From a virus: a stretch of 41,225 nucleotides of DNA. Positions 2,863 to 41,225 of the stretch are shown here, piece after piece. The notes under the pieces are model-generated. The model was given only the letters and a program-made list of their open reading frames with translations. It did no database searches and was not told the DNA's origin. The stretch is from positions 1 to 41,225 of the IMG/VR virus record IMGVR_UViG_3300020171_000067. One strand, written 5' to 3'. Position 1 is the first letter of the stretch; the number at the start of each line of letters is the position of its first letter. The position numbers and the translations under genes were made by a program.

Positions 2863-3042
2863 CTACCCTCTCCAATATTGGCAATCTTGGCACTTTGCAA
2901 GTCTGGCTTTTTGGCGTGGTAGAAAACAAATATTGTCTCTCTTCTCTATATCGTTTGCTATACAGCCATATTGGCTTTTAGCCATTTCACCTAATATATC
3001 GTTAGCTAACTTAATGGCTTTAACTGCCGTGCTCTGTTTCAT
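2863..3042 (-). CDS. Small Cys-containing protein, 59 aa
   Basis: ATG 3042. Helical N-terminal half (AVKAIKLANDILGEMAKS) and a C-terminal CQDCQYW knuckle; a further pair of cysteines lies at 27 and 39. Not in a recognised family, but the Cys spacing (C39, C51, C54) could bind zinc. Upstream the message has TTGACC, suggesting a possible weak promoter. Confidence 0.68.
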   Translation of the reverse strand: MKQSTAVKAIKLANDILGEMAKSQYGCIANDIEKRDNICFLPRQKARLAKCQDCQYWRG

Positions 3043-3084
3043 TATCTCTATCCCCCTTTACTCTTATTCTAGGTCAAGAGTTAC

Positions 3085-3480
3085 GCTTACCCGATAGTGT
3101 CTAGGCGGGAGCTATGTTTTATTTACTCTGTGCTTAGCTTAGTATCAAGGCACTAATTAGGCGGGTAGTCTGGTCTAACTTATTACTAATCGGAGCAATG
3201 CGGAGTGTTAATCTATCCCTTTTCCCAATGAGTGTTTTGTAATCACCTGAGAGCTTGCTCTGAGTGTAAAGATGTTTTTCTGCTTCCTGGCGATTAGTTC
3301 CACAGTTTCTTTGACCATGCCCGCCATCAAGATAATGATAGACTGAGTAGGTGCCGTTCTCCTCAACAAGATGAAGGACAAATCTCCCCGGGATAATTGT
3401 TACCGTCTCCAATATGTTCCCTTTAGGTGTTTGCACTATGTATTCTCCTTTGTTCCCGCCCAGAGTCTATCGGGTAAACC
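3085..3480. repeat. Inverted repeat pair flanking a single gene
   Basis: The arm 3085-3111 and the arm 3453-3480 are complementary over about 26 positions. TTACCCGATAG (3087-3097) pairs perfectly with 3467-3477, TCT/AGA follows, then GGCGGG (3104-3109) pairs with 3455-3460; only two positions are true mismatches and two more would be G-U in RNA. The arms enclose the gene at 3134-3436. They could form a long-range RNA stem in the leftward message or be ends of a small mobile unit; TTACGC occurs at both outer edges (3081-3086, 3482-3487). Confidence 0.7.
3134..3436 (-). CDS. Hypothetical protein, 100 aa, inside an inverted repeat
   Basis: GTG start at 3436 with AAAGGAG upstream. Beta-rich N-terminal half (ETVTIIPGRFVLHLVEENGTYSVYHYL) followed by a helical, basic C-terminal half. 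Not recognised. It is isolated from its neighbours: a structured gene-free stretch lies upstream and an inverted repeat encloses it. Confidence 0.68.
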   Translation of the reverse strand: MQTPKGNILETVTIIPGRFVLHLVEENGTYSVYHYLDGGHGQRNCGTNRQEAEKHLYTQSKLSGDYKTLIGKRDRLTLRIAPISNKLDQTTRLISALILS

Positions 3481-3980
3481 TTTACGCTTTTCTGTATGGT
3501 GAAGCGTTAAGCCCGCTAGTGAAGGATATTCTATTGTTAAGGTGCTATTCTGGTTGCGGGAGCGCCCCCGCTATAAATCAAGTTTAGCTCATTCAAATCG
3601 TATCCATTACGGATGGCCCTTGCCACGCTTCACGGGCTTTGCGGTTTTTAGATGACCGCTCAGTGGGGGAGCTTCACTTTAACATCGGGTCTTTGTTTTT
3701 AGACGCTACTCCATTCGTCTTCAGCCTTAGTAGAATTAGCCTAGTTTGATTAAGTTGTTAACTGCTACTGTATTACGAGTCGCTCAACCTTTGGGCTAGG
3801 CCCTCCAAGATTTATTATGCCAGCACTTCCTTTAATCTCAGAGTTTATTCTGCTAATCGTTTATTAAGGTGCGGGGAGCGGCTTGCCTTGCTGTCCAGCT
3901 TGGTCATACCGCTTGTGTTGTCTATTCCCTAACGGCTGCCCTAGCTTATCACTTCTAGGGCAGGTTGTCAAGGCTTATAG
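3437..3980 (-). ncRNA. Gene-free, structured region; candidate large non-coding RNA
   Basis: No credible coding frame over 544 bases in an otherwise tightly packed operon. Strong pairings: CGGGGAGCG 3872-3880 with 4009-4017; a 9-bp hairpin CTGCCCTAG 3936-3944 with 3955-3963; GTGAAGCGT 3499-3507 with 3625-3633; AAGCCCG 3509-3515 with 3633-3639, the last two ordered as in a pseudoknot; smaller hairpins GCGGG/CCCGC near 3560 and GCGGT/ACCGC near 3650. A TTGACA box at 3966-3971 with a weak TAAGCT could start the RNA. The orientation is taken from the operon. Size and setting recall large phage RNAs such as ROOL or GOLLD, but no identity is claimed. Confidence 0.45.
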
Positions 3981-4199
3981 CTATATTGGCTCTAATCCTC
4001 GGTTGGCACGCTCCCCGTTCATTCCAAATTTGGCAAAACTATCCAGCCATTTTGGCGAGCAAGTGGGACAGACTCCCGTCCCTTCAGATAGTGGATATGG
4101 ATAGACTGTCATCTGCCCGTTACACTTAGAGCAAGTCATCTGCATTGGTCTAAGTGCCTCATCAAGAGTCATACGATTGCTTTGTGTCCTTGTGGTCAT
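3981..4199 (-). CDS. Zinc-ribbon protein, 72 aa; first gene of leftward arm
   Basis: The frame is open to 4262, but ATG 4199 has AAGGAGG eight or so bases upstream and the promoter boxes lie at 4234-4262, so 4199 is the start. CSKC at about residue 23 and CPTC at about residue 44 form a zinc ribbon. As the promoter-proximal gene of the whole leftward arm it may be among the first phage proteins made. C-terminal end overlaps one arm of a 9-bp inverted repeat. Confidence 0.75.
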   Translation of the reverse strand: MTTRTQSNRMTLDEALRPMQMTCSKCNGQMTVYPYPLSEGTGVCPTCSPKWLDSFAKFGMNGERANRGLEPI

Positions 4200-4233
4200 T
4201 CCCCTTACCTCCTTCTTTTTTACTCTCATAATC

Positions 4234-4262
4234 ACAATATCATAGCTAAAATCGCTTGTCAA
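4234..4262 (-). promoter_or_regulatory. Main leftward promoter with palindromic -35
   Basis: TTGACA at 4262-4257, 17-bp spacer, TATTGT at 4239-4234 preceded by TG (extended -10). The -35 box sits in a perfect 13-bp palindrome CGCTTGTCAAGCG (4253-4265), which could be an operator. Confidence 0.65.
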
Positions 4263-4437
4263 GCGCTGGTTCGCATTTAGTTTGGCTTTTTACACGGTAG
4301 CGGTAGCACTTTTGAGGCTAATAAAAATAGTTTGTGCCTAAACTTTATGTCTAATTAAGAGGTGATACGATTGTAGTTGTTATAGTTGTTTAATTACCTA
4401 CTCTTGAATTGTGGTATAATAGATACAAGGAGGGAAT
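4263..4437. promoter_or_regulatory. Divergent control region between the two arms
   Basis: AT-rich 175-bp gap separating leftward and rightward genes. Holds TAATTAA (4352-4358) and its complement TTAATTA (4390-4396), direct TTGT-AGTTGT runs near 4371-4390, and the rightward extended -10 at 4412-4420. No gene seen. Confidence 0.6.
4412..4420 (+). promoter_or_regulatory. Extended -10 promoter (TGGTATAAT)
   Basis: TGG-TATAAT 18 bases before ATG 4438, with AAGGAGGG between. No good -35 at normal distance. Predicted leader is about 11 nt. Confidence 0.65.
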
Positions 4438-4647
4438 ATGAGTAAATTGAATTGGTGCGATTACATAGGGAAAGCGGTGTCTATTCTGATAACAGGAAAG
4501 GATGACAAGACTGAGAATTATATGGGCATAATTGAGACTATCACCGATGATGGCTTTATAATCCTTGACCCAAACAATCCTAACTTCACGATAGGTAAAA
4601 TCATCTTCAAGACTGACCTGGTGAAGAGTATATGGGTTTATAAGTAA
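4438..4647 (+). CDS. Small beta-barrel (Sm-like) protein candidate, 69 aa
   Basis: First rightward gene, with a near-perfect RBS. The pattern GKAVSILI, then YMGIIETITDDGFIILD, then a C-terminal KTDLVKSIWVYK resembles an Sm/SH3-type small beta-barrel: a curved strand, the G-x-I-x-x-I turn and a final strand. That is a fold guess, not an assignment. Its promoter faces away from the leftward arm, so it could be a regulator or RNA-binding protein made early. Confidence 0.7.
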   Translation: MSKLNWCDYIGKAVSILITGKDDKTENYMGIIETITDDGFIILDPNNPNFTIGKIIFKTDLVKSIWVYK

Positions 4648-4723
4648 GAAAGAAAGAGAAAGAAACATTCCCCCCCATACCCCCCTATAAAGAAAGAGAA
4701 AGAAAGAATTATAACTAATACTT

Positions 4724-4743
4724 ATAAGAGAACCTACTCTTAT
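4724..4743 (+). other. Hairpin in gap between two small rightward genes
   Basis: ATAAGAG, six-base loop, CTCTTAT. No T-run follows, so it is not a classical terminator. The gap 4648-4814 also contains two copies of a purine-rich AAGAAAGAGAAAG block (near 4648 and 4689) around a run of C residues, and an extra TATAAT at 4769-4774. Confidence 0.5.
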
Positions 4744-4799
4744 TATAGAGTATCTTTGTTAGTAAGGGTATAATACCGGGACACCTTCTCTTCAAGATA

Positions 4800-4808
4800 T
4801 GCTATAAT
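4800..4808 (+). promoter_or_regulatory. Extended -10 promoter (TGCTATAAT), leaderless start
   Basis: TATAAT 4803-4808 is only six bases before ATG 4815, so the expected transcription start coincides with the start codon. No RBS is present. Confidence 0.62.
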
Positions 4809-4814
4809 AGACTT

Positions 4815-5051
4815 ATGGATGCTGAAAAGGAGAAGAGACGTCTTAACCGGCTGATGGTCGCTAATAAGAGAAACATTGAAGGATATATCAAGGTTGAAGA
4901 GGCCGTCCGGCTAACCCCTATCAGTGAGCCACTACCTTCATGGATAACCACCGATAACCTGCCCTATCTCTTGCTATCATCCTTAAGCAATTCTAAGAGA
5001 GACTATGACGATGACTTCACCCCCCTAGATTCACTAAACCAACCTGATTGA
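4815..5051 (+). CDS. Hypothetical protein, 78 aa, probably leaderless
   Basis: Basic helical N-terminus (EKEKRRLNRLMVANKRN) and an acidic, proline-containing C-terminus. Not recognised. There is no ribosome binding site; the -10 box at 4803-4808 places the message start on the ATG. Confidence 0.6.
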   Translation: MDAEKEKRRLNRLMVANKRNIEGYIKVEEAVRLTPISEPLPSWITTDNLPYLLLSSLSNSKRDYDDDFTPLDSLNQPD

Positions 5052-5059
5052 TTGTGTCG

Positions 5060-5068
5060 TGGTATAAT
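5060..5068 (+). promoter_or_regulatory. Extended -10 promoter (TGGTATAAT)
   Basis: Same element as at 4412-4420 but with no gene downstream for 450 bases. Predicted start near 5075, just before a 12-bp stem. Confidence 0.6.
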
Positions 5069-5074
5069 GAGTAT

Positions 5075-5190
5075 AGACTGCTCAATATAGTGGGGATACT
5101 GTGAATATAAAGAATAAACAGAGGGTGATATACAGAGAGCGGTAGTTGGTGAGAAGACCGTAAGCCCCTATCATATCCCCACTATGTATT
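5075..5190 (+). ncRNA. Candidate small structured RNA
   Basis: A perfect 12-bp stem ATAGTGGGGATA (5087-5098) with 5174-5185 closes a domain of about 75 nt in which smaller stems (CTGT/ACAG, CGGT/ACCG, TGATA/TATCA) can form. A promoter ends seven bases before the predicted start and no ORF is present. Class not recognised. Confidence 0.45.
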
Positions 5191-5196
5191 AGATGT

Positions 5197-5220
5197 ATTG
5201 CGTAATTGCGTAATTGCGTA
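5197..5220 (+). repeat. Three tandem 8-bp repeats (ATTGCGTA)
   Basis: Three exact head-to-tail copies in a gene-free, AT-rich stretch. Short iterated repeats here could be binding sites for a replication initiator or regulator. Confidence 0.6.
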
Positions 5221-5257
5221 AGTGAGGAACTTTGTTAAACACTACTTCTTACCTGAC

Positions 5258-5282
5258 ATTGTATACTAAAATGGTATACAAT
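5258..5282. promoter_or_regulatory. Operator-like palindrome
   Basis: ATTGTATAC, seven-base spacer TAAAATG, GTATACAAT: nine-base perfect arms. Shape and size fit a dimeric helix-turn-helix regulator site. Confidence 0.55.
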
Positions 5283-5284
5283 AT

Positions 5285-5375
5285 GATAACAGGCAGGCAT
5301 CCACACTCAATAGTATGTTATGTTAATGAGTTATGTTAAGATAACAGGCATTCGTGCCTAGATAGGTTAACATAA
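5285..5375. repeat. Cluster of short direct and inverted repeats
   Basis: GATAACAGGCA occurs at 5285-5295 and 5340-5350; TTATGTTAA at 5318-5326 and 5331-5339, and inverted at 5367-5375; AGGCA-TTCG-TGCCT (5346-5359) is a hairpin with a UUCG-type loop. Together with the repeats at 5197-5282 this is the densest repeat cluster outside coding DNA and a candidate origin or control region. Confidence 0.55.
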
Positions 5376-5450
5376 TAGTTATAGTGCGAAGCTGGGGGCT
5401 AGTTTATAGGTAGTGCTAGATACGAAGGGATTAAAGCAAGGAAAAGGCTT

Positions 5451-5459
5451 TGATATAAT
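5451..5459 (+). promoter_or_regulatory. Promoter of packaging/structural operon (TGATATAAT)
   Basis: Extended -10 element with no clear -35, 64 bases upstream of the terminase small-subunit candidate. Confidence 0.6.
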
Positions 5460-5522
5460 AGTTTAGTCTAAAAACCCCCATGAAACAAAAGGCATATTAG
5501 CTATAAGGTGAGTGAAACAGAT

Positions 5523-5819
5523 ATGATAGAAAGACCGTCAAGGGCGGGGTATCTCAGGGATTGGAGAAATAAAAAGAAACTTGAGGTGCTCGAGAAAAAG
5601 AATAGACCTGATGGTGATTGGAACGAGTTTCTGGAGCATGTTAGGGTAGAGGCATTAAAGGCAGATGCCCCTGCTGCGGTAATGGGGATATACAAAGAGA
5701 TGTTAAAATTAAGTAAAGAGATGAGGAAAGGCAGTCAGATGGGGGCGGATGAATTAGCTAAGCGGAATATAGAAGCAGAGAGGCAACTCAAAGAAGGCGG
5801 TTACATTGCAGAACCTTGA
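5523..5819 (+). CDS. Terminase small-subunit candidate, 98 aa
   Basis: Charged, mostly helical protein directly upstream of and overlapping the large terminase by 14 bases, the usual place of the small subunit that recognises packaging-site DNA. No helix-turn-helix can be asserted. A GTG at 5508 in frame would add five residues, but AAGGTGAG at 5505-5512 lies directly at that GTG and at a good distance from ATG 5523, which is chosen. It could instead be an unrelated small protein. Confidence 0.6.
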   Translation: MIERPSRAGYLRDWRNKKKLEVLEKKNRPDGDWNEFLEHVRVEALKADAPAAVMGIYKEMLKLSKEMRKGSQMGADELAKRNIEAERQLKEGGYIAEP

Positions 5820-7272
5820 CATTGATATAGAGTGGCGTAAATGTCGGTTATCTCTACTCTACTATTTAAGCCATTATGTATGGATACAGGATAGGATACG
5901 GCAAGAGATAGTCAAGTGGGAGCCGTGGGAGCATCTTTGCCAGTTAGTAAAGTTAGTTCAGGACTGGCATGACCAACCTGTTCCGAGGCGACCCTTATTC
6001 GTTATAATTTATAAAAGTCGTCAAGTAGGGACATCAACGACGTTATCGGGGATAGCTAATTGGTTAGTCAGTTTTTTTGAAAGTTCAAAAGTAATAGAGC
6101 AATCGGAGAATGAAAGGGTAGCCATAGAGATGTTAGAGCGGTCTTACTTTATAAATAAGCATCACCCATCCTTTCTCCAGCTTGAGTATTATCCTAATCA
6201 AAATGATTTAATTGGAGTTCCAGCGACTAATGGTAAAATTATAACATTACCCTCAACAGAAGATGCTGGCAGGTCAACAGATGCCACTATGGTTATTTGT
6301 GATGAATGGGAAAATCACCGCAATGCTAGGGATGGGTTTGCTGCCGTTAAACCAGCAATGGCAAAAGGGGGATTATTTATTGGTGCTTCCACTATAAATA
6401 AAAACGATTTAGAGAGTTTCCCACATGAGGTATGGAGAGATGCAAAGCAGGGTAAGAATGGATTTGTCCCTTTATTCTGGGGTTATTTTGTAGTGCCTGG
6501 TCGTAATGAGGAAACCTACCAATTAGATACTATGGGATTAGCAGATTGGAGAAGGGAAGGTGAATATCCTCGTAATGAAAAGGAGGCTTTGTCTGCTCCG
6601 AAGACAACTGGGTATTTCAATCATGATATACTAGAGAAAATGCTTAACGAATGCCGAGACCCAGTAGAAATTCGTTATGGTGGGTTAGTGAAGATTTATA
6701 ATCAACCTATTGCCACTCGTAAGTTTGTTATGGCCGTTGACCCCTCAGAAGGACGTGATGACCCTTCAGTCGGGATAGTAATGGATGCTCAGACTGAGGA
6801 AGATGTTGCTTGTTTTCATGGCAAAATTTCATTGGAAGAGCAGGCTAAGTTTGCCTTAGAGTTGTATAAATATTATAACGAGCCGTTGTTATCTGTTGAA
6901 AGGAATGCCTCTGGATTGACACTGATAGAGAAGTTAAAAAATCTTGGAGTAAATAAACTAAATTGGTATTACTCAGACAAGGAGTTAAAGAAAGAAGGTT
7001 GGTATACTGCTAGTCGTGGTATTAGCCGAGATGTTATGTTAAATGAGTTAGCTGAGGAAGTTCATTTAAGGCGAAAAAGAATTCCAATAAAAGAATGTGT
7101 GTTGGAATTCTTTGACTTTGCCTGGGTAGATGGAAGACCACAGGCGGTGCGGGGCGGACATGATGATTGGGTAATGTGTGAAGCACAATTAGGGCAGATT
7201 GCTAAGAATTTACCAACAGGTGGTATAAAGTTCAGTAGTTTTACTAAGTATCCAATAAGGAGACAAAGATGA
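5806..7272 (+). CDS. terL: Terminase large subunit
   Basis: 488 residues. This is the ATP-driven packaging motor with a headful or site-cutting nuclease. N-terminal ATPase: Walker A KSRQVGTST at 70-78, Walker B VICDE at 163-167, coupling motif GAST at 193-196. C-terminal RNase H-like nuclease: first Asp in VDPSEGRDD (D312), Glu in SVERNASG (E365) and last Asp in GGHDDW (453-454). Start is TTG 5806, read because no in-frame ATG precedes the ATPase and GAAGG lies about seven bases upstream. It overlaps the portal start by four bases, so the two are coupled. Confidence 0.96.
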   Translation: MQNLDIDIEWRKCRLSLLYYLSHYVWIQDRIRQEIVKWEPWEHLCQLVKLVQDWHDQPVPRRPLFVIIYKSRQVGTSTTLSGIANWLVSFFESSKVIEQSENERVAIEMLERSYFINKHHPSFLQLEYYPNQNDLIGVPATNGKIITLPSTEDAGRSTDATMVICDEWENHRNARDGFAAVKPAMAKGGLFIGASTINKNDLESFPHEVWRDAKQGKNGFVPLFWGYFVVPGRNEETYQLDTMGLADWRREGEYPRNEKEALSAPKTTGYFNHDILEKMLNECRDPVEIRYGGLVKIYNQPIATRKFVMAVDPSEGRDDPSVGIVMDAQTEEDVACFHGKISLEEQAKFALELYKYYNEPLLSVERNASGLTLIEKLKNLGVNKLNWYYSDKELKKEGWYTASRGISRDVMLNELAEEVHLRRKRIPIKECVLEFFDFAWVDGRPQAVRGGHDDWVMCEAQLGQIAKNLPTGGIKFSSFTKYPIRRQR

Positions 7273-8969
7273 CTGAAGAAGGAATACTAGACCGTATTAA
7301 AGATGTTAAAACTAATTTTGTAGATAATTTATACAATTCAGTCCGCACCGAACAAGGAATAGACCAGACCTATATTGACGATAGTTTTCCAGTGCCTGAA
7401 ATTCACGAGCCACACCATATTTATCGGGCTGGATTAGGAGTTAGAATAGTTGATGCTCCTGCCGAACAGATTGTTACTTCTAATCCACAGGTCTTCTTTC
7501 ACCCTCGTTCTACTAATAAACAGGCAAGTGAAAGTGCTTTGAAGCTAAGTGAATTGGTTAATAAACACTGGCTACCAATTATACAAAAACAGAATCCCAA
7601 TGTTTTTAGGGAGTTTGTTAAGGCTCAACTGGGTAGGGGTGAGGCTTTCTTTAAGGTAGTTCATAACGAGACTTGGGTTACTGGTGATAAAATAAAAGAA
7701 GGTTTACCAGTTCGTTTTATAGTTTTAGACCCAATGGTTATTTATGCTTCACCAGAAGAGGATGATGAGGGTATACCCAATCAAGTAGTGGTTTCCTATC
7801 AAGTCAAACAAACAAAGGATTTAATTGTAAAATATCCTATTTTGAAAGATAGGACTTCTACAAAAGATATGGTGGATTGGTGGGAGTATTATGATTCCAA
7901 AAATCGTTACATAGAGGCTGACGGTTTGCCGATTACTCAAGATGGGTTACAGCCTAATATCTATGGCGTTACACCCTTTGTGCGTAAGTATTCAGGTTTT
8001 GGTCGGCGTTCTCCTAGTGGTGAGTTATCCAATCTAATTGTAAGTGATATAAGACGGTCAAGGGATTTAATTCGTGAAGAATGTGCTATGCGTTCTAATA
8101 TGGCAAGTATCTTGTTTCTCTTTGCCCATAAATCCAAAACGTTAATAACTTCAGGTCAAATTGATGTTGCCAAGATGCAAGAAGAAGTCCAGTGGGGAGA
8201 ATATGTTTGGAATATAATTCAAGGTGTGCCTCCTGATACTAGATTATTGGAGACAGATATACAACTTACCCCCGATGTTTTTGCTCGCCATCTTCAGATA
8301 GTTCAGGAGTTAAATCAGAGACATCCCTTTATTATGGCTGGTTTTCCGCAGGGAACAAGTGGACGACAGCAAGATATGACTGAGACAGCAGCAATGAGAC
8401 GATATGATTCTGTTGTTGAGAATACAGAGTGGGCATTTGCTACGGCACTGAAGATGGCTATAAAACTCTGCGCCACAATCCCTGGATTAAAACCAGAGGA
8501 AGTTAGTCAGAAGGATTTAGAGACCGAGTTTGATATTGAGGTTAGATTAAAAGTCAAAGACCCAATAGAAAATGACCGACGGATTACACTTGGTGATAGA
8601 TTGTGGAATAGTGGTAAAGGTTCTATATCACTCTCTCGCTTTCATACTGAATATCAAGGGTTGACTGAAGATGAGTCTAAGAAGGAAATAGCTAGAATGT
8701 TAGCTGACCAGATAACTATTTACAACCCTGATGTGGCTGCAGTGATGGGCATGGTGGCTGCTGAGGAAAGTGGTATGGAGATTTATTTAGAGAAGGCAAA
8801 GGAGAGAAGGACACAGATGGAAGGACAGCAAGGGTTAAGAAAAGAATTACCAGTAACAAGTCAAGAAAGGATACAGGGAGAGACTCAAACCCCCCTGGGG
8901 CAAGAGATTGGCACTGAAGGACAACGAGGAGCTAGGATGTCACCAGAACGTTATGAAAGGGGAGGATAA
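7269..8969 (+). CDS. Portal protein
   Basis: 566 residues, right after the large terminase with ATG overlap. Portal proteins form the dodecameric ring at one capsid vertex through which DNA passes and to which the terminase docks. The N-terminal segment, the region around residues 60-130 with helices and AQLGRGEAFFKVV, and a C-terminal helical, Gln-rich tail agree with the SPP1/HK97-type portal layout. Identification rests on position, size and overall pattern; no catalytic motif exists in this family. The C-terminal 60 residues are charged and likely disordered. Confidence 0.85.
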   Translation: MTEEGILDRIKDVKTNFVDNLYNSVRTEQGIDQTYIDDSFPVPEIHEPHHIYRAGLGVRIVDAPAEQIVTSNPQVFFHPRSTNKQASESALKLSELVNKHWLPIIQKQNPNVFREFVKAQLGRGEAFFKVVHNETWVTGDKIKEGLPVRFIVLDPMVIYASPEEDDEGIPNQVVVSYQVKQTKDLIVKYPILKDRTSTKDMVDWWEYYDSKNRYIEADGLPITQDGLQPNIYGVTPFVRKYSGFGRRSPSGELSNLIVSDIRRSRDLIREECAMRSNMASILFLFAHKSKTLITSGQIDVAKMQEEVQWGEYVWNIIQGVPPDTRLLETDIQLTPDVFARHLQIVQELNQRHPFIMAGFPQGTSGRQQDMTETAAMRRYDSVVENTEWAFATALKMAIKLCATIPGLKPEEVSQKDLETEFDIEVRLKVKDPIENDRRITLGDRLWNSGKGSISLSRFHTEYQGLTEDESKKEIARMLADQITIYNPDVAAVMGMVAAEESGMEIYLEKAKERRTQMEGQQGLRKELPVTSQERIQGETQTPLGQEIGTEGQRGARMSPERYERGG

Positions 8970-9229: not shown

Positions 9230-10424
9230 TGGAACACCTAATTGGTGGGAATTAAGAGGAATGTCTGATTGGTTACAACGGCGCTGGAGTCCCTTCCGTG
9301 AGTCTCCTCCTATTGAGATAAGCAAAGGAAGAGGAGCAGAATGGAGGGCAGCACCTCCAAGAAAGGTAATTCCAAGAATAGGTCAACCTGGTTATTGGTC
9401 AGCAATGGGGATACCTGCAGTAGAGCCGAAAAAGGTAACTCCTACTACTCCCACTACCGAGCAAGGTTTGATGTGGTATGTCCCTGGGCTAGTTCTTTAC
9501 GACCCAAAGACAAAAACATACTGGGACTCTGACAGTCAAGCTCAATATAGCAAACAACAAGCGGATGCTATAAAAACTCAATATGAGCGCCAGCAAGAGG
9601 CGACTGATATTCAGTCGCTGCCAGTTCAAGCTCAATGGCAGTTACAAGAATTAGCTAGAACTCGTAAAGTATTGGGGGCAGAGGCTAATCCTTTCTGGGC
9701 AGGATTAGAGCAATCTATTCAGGAAAGGATTGGGACAGGAGATATAACGCCAGAAGACCTTGCTATGATTGAAAGAGCCAGAAAATCTGAGATAGCAAGC
9801 AAATTTCAGGCAATAGGTGCTGACATTCCCGAATGGGGCGTAACAGGTGCACAAAGCGTAATGGCTGAACGCTTGCGATCACAAGACCGATGGCGTGCTG
9901 ACCAACGGCAACTTCTAGAAGGATTACCATCAGGAGCAGAGGGTGATGTTGCTAGATGGTTTGTAGGAAATATGGAAAACCCATTTAGTAGAGTAGGTCA
10001 ATTAGGTTTTGAGGAGGCTATGGCAGGTCAGTCAACGGCATCTCGGCAGTTGACTGCCGAAGCAGCAGGTAGAAAACCAATGGGACCCCCAACACCTGGT
10101 TGGTTACCTGAATTTGTGCCAGGGACTACTGCAGGAGAACCAATAGGGGGAAGGTCAGGTAGTGGAGTAGTAGCAAATCCTGGGTGGTGGCAAACAAACC
10201 GTCCAGAACTCTTGAGAGAGGGGAGAACATTGCCATTTGTGCCAACACCTAGTGGTCAACAATTAACTAAAATGACACCGAGCCAAGCACAATGGTTATC
10301 TGGTGCTATTGATTGGTTTGGTGGTAGACCTTGGAAGGATATATTAGCTGAAGCCGAAATTATGCAACCCCAAACACCAAGAGGTGCTGGTCAAAGGCAA
10401 TGGCGTCCAAGTAGACAAGCATAA
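9222..10424 (+). CDS. Hypothetical virion-associated protein, 400 aa
   Basis: Start ATG 9222 is preferred over ATG 9216, which touches the AGGAGG. The protein is rich in Trp, Pro, Gln and Gly, with a tryptophan-rich N-terminus (NWWELRGMSDWLQRRW) and long low-complexity linkers; helices at residues 135-240 look coherent. It is followed by the giant protein at 10438 with a similar composition in its N-terminal 120 residues, so the two may act together, for instance as internal virion or ejected proteins. Function not known. Confidence 0.8.
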   Translation: MPDGTPNWWELRGMSDWLQRRWSPFRESPPIEISKGRGAEWRAAPPRKVIPRIGQPGYWSAMGIPAVEPKKVTPTTPTTEQGLMWYVPGLVLYDPKTKTYWDSDSQAQYSKQQADAIKTQYERQQEATDIQSLPVQAQWQLQELARTRKVLGAEANPFWAGLEQSIQERIGTGDITPEDLAMIERARKSEIASKFQAIGADIPEWGVTGAQSVMAERLRSQDRWRADQRQLLEGLPSGAEGDVARWFVGNMENPFSRVGQLGFEEAMAGQSTASRQLTAEAAGRKPMGPPTPGWLPEFVPGTTAGEPIGGRSGSGVVANPGWWQTNRPELLREGRTLPFVPTPSGQQLTKMTPSQAQWLSGAIDWFGGRPWKDILAEAEIMQPQTPRGAGQRQWRPSRQA

Positions 10425-14679: not shown

Positions 14680-15537
14680 ATGGCTTATGGTGATTATACC
14701 CAACCAACCCTTGCCGAACTGATTTCAAGGAAATTTATTCCTGAGATATTCAGCAAGGATGTAATGATGCACACAATGTCCAACTTGGTAGTGGCTAATG
14801 CCTTTACCCATAAATACCAGAAAGACTTAAGGAAAGGAACTAAAGTATGGATTCCAGTAGTGACTGAAATAAGCGCTACTGAAGTCACTCCTGGTTCAAC
14901 TCCTACTCAGACAGATGCATCAACCACAGTAGCCTCAATTACTGTTGACCAATGGTATGAATCAACAGTTGAGGTTTCACCGTTTATTGCTATTGAGGAT
15001 GAAGCGGACTATCTGTCAAATGCTGCTAAGGCTGCTGCCTATGCTATAGACAAGAAGATTGATACCCAAGTGGGTTCTCTAATCTCCACCCTAAATTCTA
15101 GTGTTTATGGCTCTGCTGGACAGACCTTTACCGATGACATCTTCGTAGCATTGGTAGAAATCTTAGATAAACTAGATATTCCCCCAGATAGCAGGTTTCT
15201 TATTGGAGACCCATCCACAAAAGCTGATATGCTCAAAATAGATAAGTTCGTAAGAGGGGACTATATTAACGGACAACCGACTTCAAATGGCAAATTCGGT
15301 ATGCTTTACGGGGCTAATGTCCTCATCACCAATAACCTGACGGCAGCTACTCCTGGGCGTTATGGTGTCTATGCCCATCCTAATGCTATTGGTGTATGTC
15401 TCCAGAAGAATCCCAAAGCAAAACTTTGGGATTTGGGATGGAAGTTCCTAACACAAATTATCGTGGACTCTGCTTGGGGGTCTGCTGTAATCCAGAGTAA
15501 TTGGGGGAAGGCTTTCTATACTAGGTCATCCTCTTAG
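14680..15537 (+). CDS. Major capsid protein
   Basis: 285 residues, next to the scaffold candidate and with a strong RBS. The start AYGDYTQPTLAELISRKFIPEIFSKDV, an E-loop-like stretch with TKVWIPVV and Thr/Ser-rich strands, a helix with AAKAAAYAIDKKIDTQV and the P-domain-like GDPSTKADMLKIDKFV fit HK97-fold coat proteins of the N4 gp56/P22-like type. It builds the icosahedral shell. Expressed from the promoter at 13843. Confidence 0.88.
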   Translation: MAYGDYTQPTLAELISRKFIPEIFSKDVMMHTMSNLVVANAFTHKYQKDLRKGTKVWIPVVTEISATEVTPGSTPTQTDASTTVASITVDQWYESTVEVSPFIAIEDEADYLSNAAKAAAYAIDKKIDTQVGSLISTLNSSVYGSAGQTFTDDIFVALVEILDKLDIPPDSRFLIGDPSTKADMLKIDKFVRGDYINGQPTSNGKFGMLYGANVLITNNLTAATPGRYGVYAHPNAIGVCLQKNPKAKLWDLGWKFLTQIIVDSAWGSAVIQSNWGKAFYTRSSS

Positions 15538-26383: not shown

Positions 26384-26560
26384 ATGATTTACTTTAGGGG
26401 CGAAAACAGCCAATGGGAAAGGCTATAAACCAGTGGCGATAACAACGGCGAAAGGGTAAGTCCTTAGCAGTTGCGGTGGAATAGACACCTGCCCCTATAC
26501 GTTCTTTGTTATTAAACTACCTAAGCGTGGCGAGTTTAATAACAGAAAGCGTTATACAAC
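26384..26560 (+). other. Gene-free region: broken coding frame or structured RNA
   Basis: Between 26366 and 26599 there is no intact gene. ATG 26384 opens 14 codons; after one base is skipped the frame continues with protein-like GYKPVAITTAKG, a TAA, then SCGGIDTCPYTFFVIKL and a basic tail to 26562. The same DNA also pairs: TAGGGGC near 26394 with GCCCCTA near 26491, and a 12-bp hairpin at 26507-26544. I cannot tell decayed gene from RNA. Confidence 0.4.
26507..26544 (+). other. 12-bp hairpin
   Basis: TGTTATTAAACT (26507-26518) pairs perfectly with AGTTTAATAACA (26533-26544), loop of 14. The motif AGTTTAATAA is repeated at 26564-26573, just before the next RBS. Confidence 0.6.
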
Positions 26561-40873: not shown

Positions 40874-41225
40874 TCACTTATTTATCTCCTTCCAATAGTC
40901 CTGCCATTCTGGAAATCCTTCGTCTGCTAAAACATTAAATATATGCCCCATCACATTGCCAAAACGCTTGCTAATAGCATCCCAACAAAGGGTATGAACG
41001 ATGATTTCTCCAATGGCCACCCATTCAACAACAATAAAGGTATTTACTGGTTGCCGTCTAACAACTTCTTTGAATATATCGTGGGACCCTTTGTAATTTT
41101 TAGCGCCTCTCAAGTCAGCACCTCTCAAGTCAGCACCTCTCAAGTCAGCACCTCTCAAGTCAGCACCTCTCAAGTGAGCGCCTCTCAAGTCAGCACCTCT
41201 CAAGTCAGCACCTCCCAAGTCAGCA
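40874..41225 (-). CDS. Pentapeptide-repeat protein, 3' part (split by window edge)
   Basis: Carries the last eight pentapeptides (RGADL-type) and a 77-residue non-repeat C-terminal domain starting [19 protein letters not shown], with a hydrophobic segment [21 protein letters not shown] and ending [10 protein letters not shown]. This C-terminal domain, of unknown function, may be the effector part with the beta-helix as a scaffold. The ATG at about 41218 inside the array is not the real start, which is at 454. Confidence 0.85.
41141..41225. repeat. 85-bp direct terminal repeat, right copy
   Basis: Exact copy of 23-107. Supports circular closure of the window. Confidence 0.75.

Follow-up and report, generated by a model that had tools for sequence, protein, structure and literature searches.

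A gene-free, stop-rich stretch and a 24-nt inverted repeat in the minus-strand arm of an uncultured tailed phage: a possible untranslated, folded segment of an early multi-gene message

Results

Location and coding content of the stretch

The DNA analyzed here, referred to as the window, consists of positions 1 to 41,225 of IMG/VR record IMGVR_UViG_3300020171_000067. This 41.2-kb record of an uncultured tailed phage contains a plus-strand structural module, with a terminase gene at 5806-7272, and a minus-strand arm in two pieces, one spanning about 41,000 to 27,000 and the other, at the left, 4262 to about 600. A 15-bp tandem array was found at both contig ends (4-366, 24 copies; 41102-41225, 8 copies of the identical unit). 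Because both ends lie within one array, the phage probably has a circular or circularly permuted genome whose assembly broke inside the array, and the two minus-strand pieces would therefore be a single arm. Two perfect 12-bp hairpins were also seen in the window, at 26507-26544, close to where the plus and minus arms converge, and at 7076-7113, within the terminase gene.

The stretch under study is located near the upstream end of the gene-dense minus arm, directly after the first gene, and the features of the locus are listed in Table 1.

Table 1. Features of the early minus-strand locus (positions in the window; P, predicted pair probability).
Feature	Position	Strand	Description	Basis
Best candidate operon promoter	4234-4262	-	TTGACA-17-TATTGT, TG before the -10	Promoter scan
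Upstream (first) gene	3981-4217	-	78 aa, two CxxC pairs, zinc-ribbon-like	Sub-threshold matches only
Gene-free stretch	3437-3980	-	544 nt, between the first and second operon genes	Stops, codon score, family searches
5' hairpin element	3922-3980	-	Starts at first base past upstream stop codon; arms CTAT, CCTTGAC, CTGCCCTAG	P 0.74-0.99
Perfect 9-bp palindrome	3936-3963	.	CTGCCCTAG-N10-CTAGGGCAG; counterpart behind ATAAGCCTTG in relative L004	Sequence
UCCCCC	3665-3670	-	Predicted pairing with Shine-Dalgarno sequence of third gene	P 0.86-0.89
Crossing helices, 5' side	3625-3639	-		Exact pairing
Crossing helices, 3' side	3499-3515	-		Exact pairing
Inverted repeat, 5' arm	3454-3477	-	24 nt, 21/24 complementary; ends 17 nt ahead of bracketed gene's start codon	Repeat scan, folds
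Bracketed gene	3134-3436	-	100 aa, GTG start, AAAGGAGAA Shine-Dalgarno sequence	No Pfam/PHROG match
Second gene-free piece	3043-3133	-	91 nt; holds 3' arm and local hairpin 3081-3060	Fold
Inverted repeat, 3' arm	3087-3110	-	23 nt past bracketed gene's stop codon	Repeat scan, folds
GGGGGA	3051-3056	-	Shine-Dalgarno sequence of gene 3042-2863; mostly paired by prediction (unpaired probability of first five bases 0-0.02)	Fold

The original prediction had described 3437-3980 as free of genes, and this was borne out: on the minus strand, the preceding gene ends at 3981 and the following one starts at 3436. Its three minus frames carry 14, 15 and 18 stops, and the few start codons preceded by a Shine-Dalgarno sequence each open no more than four codons (three to four). 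There was no coding-like codon score anywhere across the stretch, and two short plus-strand open reading frames that touch it were without any match in family searches. In summary, neither a protein-coding gene nor a pseudogene was found, whether judged by open frames, coding score, protein homologues or tblastx matches in relatives, and origin-type iterons were also absent from the stretch.

Stop trinucleotides and base composition

The minus strand of the stretch is rich in A (0.34) and poor in T (0.19) and contains 47 TAA, TAG and TGA trinucleotides compared to 29 expected, an excess of 4.3 SD relative to mononucleotide shuffles and 3.3 SD relative to dinucleotide shuffles, whereas the plus-strand count is near zero SD and nothing unusual. 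No excess to a like degree was present in 10 coding controls, four rRNA pieces or RNase P RNA. A comparable value (+3.8 SD against mononucleotide and +3.6 SD against dinucleotide shuffles) was obtained for a gene-free stretch of a relative of the phage, L004, described below. In a scan of some 22,000 330-nt windows taken from the record and the retrieved relatives, a z-score of at least 3 was reached in six segments only. Two of these six are both A-rich and T-poor, namely 3636-4025 of our window and the copy, on contig L021, of L004 1390-1719, and in both cases the stop-rich strand is that of the early arm.

The stop counts suggest that the stretch has been kept untranslated on the transcribed strand. 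As known structured RNAs lack such an excess, the signal may mean "untranslated" and not "structured". The excess of stop trinucleotides may be of practical use as a cheap flag for long untranslated stretches in phage genomes that lack homologues.

These properties bear on the possibility that 3437-3980 is neutral, decayed or regulatory DNA between genes, such as an old gene remnant or a set of protein-binding sites, and not a functional RNA. The excess of stops, which extends to all three minus frames, is the reverse of what a decayed minus-strand gene would show, and the GC content of the stretch (46.3%, compared to 41.7% for the window) exceeds that of the other gene-free pieces (0.34-0.37). 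On the other side, the pairing density and local fold energy of the stretch are ordinary, as described below, and relatives show just a small amount of similar sequence. For protein-binding sites in particular, the 9-bp palindrome overlaps a TTGACA sequence, and the same 24-nt motif lies ahead of genes 3436 and 3042, as would suit operators; but the two 24-nt copies are oppositely oriented and match over their full length, which is beyond what operators need, and the -10 sequence is poor. We regard this explanation as unlikely, though it carries appreciable weight.

An inverted repeat brackets the second gene

The scan for inverted repeats (at least 22 bp, no more than 3 mismatches, arms within 1.5 kb) yielded a single pair in the window, 3087-3110 with 3454-3477, and at these thresholds none in three block-shuffled sequences, L004 or L021. 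This repeat, overlooked in the original prediction, is the strongest feature of the locus. The 21 complementary pairs in the 24-nt arms become 24 pairs with an extension of the helix, which contains a 2x2 mismatch; the energy of the RNA duplex is -39.1 kcal/mol, and the pair probability is about 1 in folds of both 938 nt and 1641 nt. When the piece beyond the next gene was included, the fold of 3043-3980 gave a minimum free energy (MFE) z-score of -2.78 for the minus strand, with none of 20 shuffles as stable, and -2.24 for the plus strand. Inverted repeats favor the folding of both strands, and so the bracket by itself is not proof of an RNA.

The same repeat could instead represent DNA ends, that is, the 24-bp terminal inverted repeats of a mobile or invertible 391-bp gene cassette at 3087-3477 that entered the intergenic stretch by insertion. 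Such an arrangement would fit the way in which the repeats flank a single gene. It would also fit the direct repeat TTACGCTT, one copy of which (3081-3088) adjoins an end of the segment, with the other copy (3482-3489) some 5 bp beyond the opposite end, as in a target duplication that is imperfect and not flush with both ends. The 24-nt repeat has no other copy in the window and the inverted-repeat pattern had no exact match in IMG/VR; Pfam and PHROGs do not identify the bracketed gene as a transposase or recombinase; and a cassette would leave the other 500 nt unexplained. We think a cassette quite unlikely.

Local pairing and fold energy

Every pairing listed in the original prediction was present and exact. 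Nevertheless, the description of the stretch as highly paired did not hold, as perfect 7-, 8- and 9-mer pairings were not above those of dinucleotide shuffles (fractions of shuffles at or above the observed number 0.33, 0.17 and 0.09).

A pseudoknot had also been proposed, from 3499-3507 with 3625-3633 and 3509-3515 with 3633-3639. Both helices are exact and in crossing order, but the geometry is doubtful: they overlap at base 3633, and linkers of 0 and 1 nt span helices of 7-9 bp, which together disallow an ordinary H-type pseudoknot. When 3437-3980 was folded alone, the probabilities of the two helices were 0.08 and 0.001. Crossing pairs of helices of at least 7 bp were present in 90% of shuffles, and crossing helices with both junctions this tight in 1.3%, a figure that is suggestive, although the arrangement was chosen after the fact. 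In larger-context folds the helix 3639-3632/3516-3509 was predicted at 0.83-0.91, whereas the other was near zero in the 1641-nt fold, and so the two are better viewed as alternatives.

The MFE z-score of 3437-3980 was -1.35 for the minus and -0.54 for the plus strand, and local 110-nt fold z-scores did not differ from those elsewhere in the window. As controls, RNase P RNA and fragments of 16S and 23S rRNA scored -0.5 to -2.2 in a test of this kind. Because true structured RNAs reach only these values, an ordinary z-score is not evidence against structure, and we discarded fold z-scores as evidence either way. One of the coding controls, 14700-15243 (plus strand) in the structural-module gene 14680-15537, gave an MFE z-score of -5.1, far below the other coding controls, and this gene may contain an RNA element.

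Several predicted helices of the stretch shift with the context of the fold; for example, 3973-3967/3933-3927 drops from 0.99 to 0.09. In the longer context, the inner hairpin alone of the 5' hairpin element persists (0.96 versus 0.09). The TTGACA sequence noted in the original prediction at the 5' side is present (minus strand, 3971-3966), but it has no good -10 sequence (TAAGCT at 17 nt) and does not appear in the promoter scan list, and we rejected it as a weak promoter. More generally, the scan revealed for the stretch no promoter of good score of its own and no terminator.

Relatives of the phage

No alignable homologue of 3437-3980 was found in scans of phages, plasmids and IMG/VR, and neither flanking gene, used as protein bait, retrieved a relative from IMG/VR. 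With the portal-position gene (7269-8969) as bait, 15 relatives of varied distance were obtained, and the terminase gene added two more; these have just the structural module in common with our phage, and their minus arms are unrelated. A scan of bacterial genomes with the portal-position and terminase genes gave only a 31%-identical contig of a Dependentiae MAG.

In L004, the portal-position protein of which is 45% identical in alignment, a gene-free stretch at 1310-1708 lies in the same arm and strand; its MFE z-score was -2.85 and -1.97 in two separate runs. It carries ATAAGCCTTG-N5-CTGCCC...GGGCA, which resembles window positions 3978-3936; comparison of CTGCCC-U/A-GGGCAG in the window with CTGCCC-G/C-GGGCA in L004 reveals one two-sided change. 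The pattern of ATAAGCCTTG plus hairpin has six other exact matches in IMG/VR, which look like chance occurrences in apparently coding sequence. In a global comparison, the L004 and window stretches were not more similar than shuffles.

The contig L021, which belongs to the phage of L004, contains a 478-nt gene-free stretch (9274-9751, plus strand) between same-strand genes farther along the arm, filling the space from a stop codon to the next Shine-Dalgarno sequence. Its fold has a z-score of -1.80 and -0.33 kcal/mol per nt, its GC content is 0.50 versus 0.43, and no Rfam match was found in it. The 14-mer GGACAGCAAGGCAA is exact in both this and the window stretch. The similarities to L004 and L021 extend over short segments; they were noticed by inspection or came from matches with weak E-values. 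A MAFFT alignment of the window stretch with the two produced no trustworthy result.

As a separate observation, seven phages have in common a non-coding motif that lies close to the terminase genes and occurs in both orientations. It consists of invariant CGCACTAT, five variable bases and invariant TTATGT, and it is located at 5367-5390 (plus strand) of the window and, on the plus strand, at L002 1711, L005 368 and L008 2649 and, on the minus strand, at L006 100, L010 1333 and L025 1080. The motif CGCACTAT-N5-TTATGT resembles a XerC/XerD dif site, with TTATGTTAA as the XerD arm. The likeness would suggest that Xer recombinases of the host mediate integration or resolve dimers; Xer-type recombination is unusual for tailed phages. 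Another gene-free region, about 0.46 kb long (5052-5507), precedes the terminase genes and carries three copies of ATTGCGTA, two of GATAACAGGCA and a 9-bp palindrome, ATTGTATAC-N7-GTATACAAT.

Searches for known RNA families

A cmscan of the whole window against Rfam, a search that the original prediction had proposed, gave no match at the gathering threshold, and a scan of 2900-5600 at E values up to 5 gave just an irrelevant, sub-threshold match to a human lncRNA. ROOL, GOLLD, introns and riboswitches are therefore not supported. A group I or II intron with an open reading frame in a peripheral loop was rejected: there was no Intron_gpI or Intron_gpII match up to an E value of 5, no gene is split, the upstream gene has its own stop codon at 3981, and the 100-aa open reading frame lacks a Pfam or PHROG match.

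Discussion

The suggestion that the stretch might specify an RNA has gained some independent support, in the form of the stop excess on one strand, the A-rich and T-poor composition, the bracket helix and the comparable stretch in a relative. We tentatively favor the interpretation that 3437-3980 is an untranslated, folded part of an early minus-strand multi-gene message, which pairs across the next gene by means of the 24-bp helix. Transcription would start near 4262 and read gene 4217-3981, then the 544-nt stretch, then gene 3436-3134 and onward. The repeat arm in the stretch has a computed potential to pair with its partner beyond gene 3436-3134, and such pairing in the cell would loop out the gene. 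Cleavage of the helix by RNase III might then separate the message of this gene from the 5' stretch and from the downstream genes. A helix of the length of the bracket is a natural target of RNase III, and so processing is the likeliest outcome of pairing; the bracket helix is best read as a possible processing or cis-control stalk in an early operon message. Release of a stable RNA could follow, and such an RNA might have a function of its own. Against this interpretation are the absence of a homologue, the pairing density at the level of chance, the ordinary local z-scores and the dependence of several helices on context.

A weaker second effect is predicted, in that UCCCCC at 3670-3665 would mask the Shine-Dalgarno sequence of gene 3042-2863, and control of the start of this third gene by 3665-3670/3056-3051 is possible. 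Carried further, the stretch might act solely as a cis-acting leader that exposes the Shine-Dalgarno sequence of gene 3436-3134 and masks that of gene 3042-2863 and thereby adjusts the proportion of one protein to the other, with no release of an RNA. The fold predictions agree with this to the extent that most of 3449-3437 is 0.6-0.98 unpaired compared to 0-0.02 at 3056-3052; however, the masking helix consists of six G-C-rich pairs that could arise by chance, and 544 nt is very long for the task. A role as a leader only seems to us very improbable.

The original prediction had compared the stretch to ROOL and GOLLD, which are RNAs of phages and prophages that are often, although not obligatorily, near tRNA islands and have no known function (PMC12286853). 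A free-standing, ornate, homo-oligomeric, non-coding phage RNA of a new family would fit the size, phage setting and A-rich composition of the stretch, and the fold-prone L021 stretch with its common 14-mer is in keeping with this. In contrast, there is no Rfam match, no tRNA (by ARAGORN, in the 41-kb window), terminator, good promoter of its own or family of homologues, the pseudoknot geometry is doubtful, and GGACAGCAAGGCAA sits near opposite ends of the two stretches. The likeness as first put is not supported: size and setting are what make a ROOL- or GOLLD-like working of the stretch possible, and we consider a free-standing RNA decidedly unlikely. There is also a small chance that the locus represents a new class of large phage RNA, in which a gene lies in the loop of the RNA's own 24-bp closing helix, the transcribed strand is saturated with stops, and a strongly diverged form is present in the distant L004/L021 phage.

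If an RNA is released from the message, a family outside Rfam would join the few known large phage RNAs, the functions of which are poorly understood, and it would have an unusual layout with a gene within the RNA loop. If the bracket is a processing stalk only, it would modestly extend what is known of the ways in which phages partition a polycistronic message.

Among known systems, ROOL RNA (RF03087) shares the phage setting, and our stretch of 544 nt is near the size of ROOL env-120, which is 659 nt (PMC12286853); it differs in that the stretch has no covariance-model match, tRNA island or demonstrated covariation. GOLLD RNA (RF02032) is similarly large, non-coding and phage-borne, but it is commonly longer than 800 nt (PMC12286853), and the stretch is shorter, without a match to GOLLD and with no tRNA nearby. 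Miniature inverted-repeat elements and small insertion cassettes resemble the locus in having inverted repeats, here of 24 bp, at the edges of a short segment, here of 391 bp, whereas the segment in our phage is present in a single copy, with no clean target duplication and no transposase. The long stalks around bacterial 16S and 23S rRNA are cut by RNase III, and, as in those stalks, complementary arms of more than 20 nt flank a segment that would be excised, with a long helix across it. The predicted bracket helix provides the double-stranded RNA of more than about 20 bp, flanking a segment, that characterizes RNase III stalks; it differs from the rRNA stalks in that a protein gene is bracketed, the helix contains a 2x2 mismatch, and the cleavage is putative.
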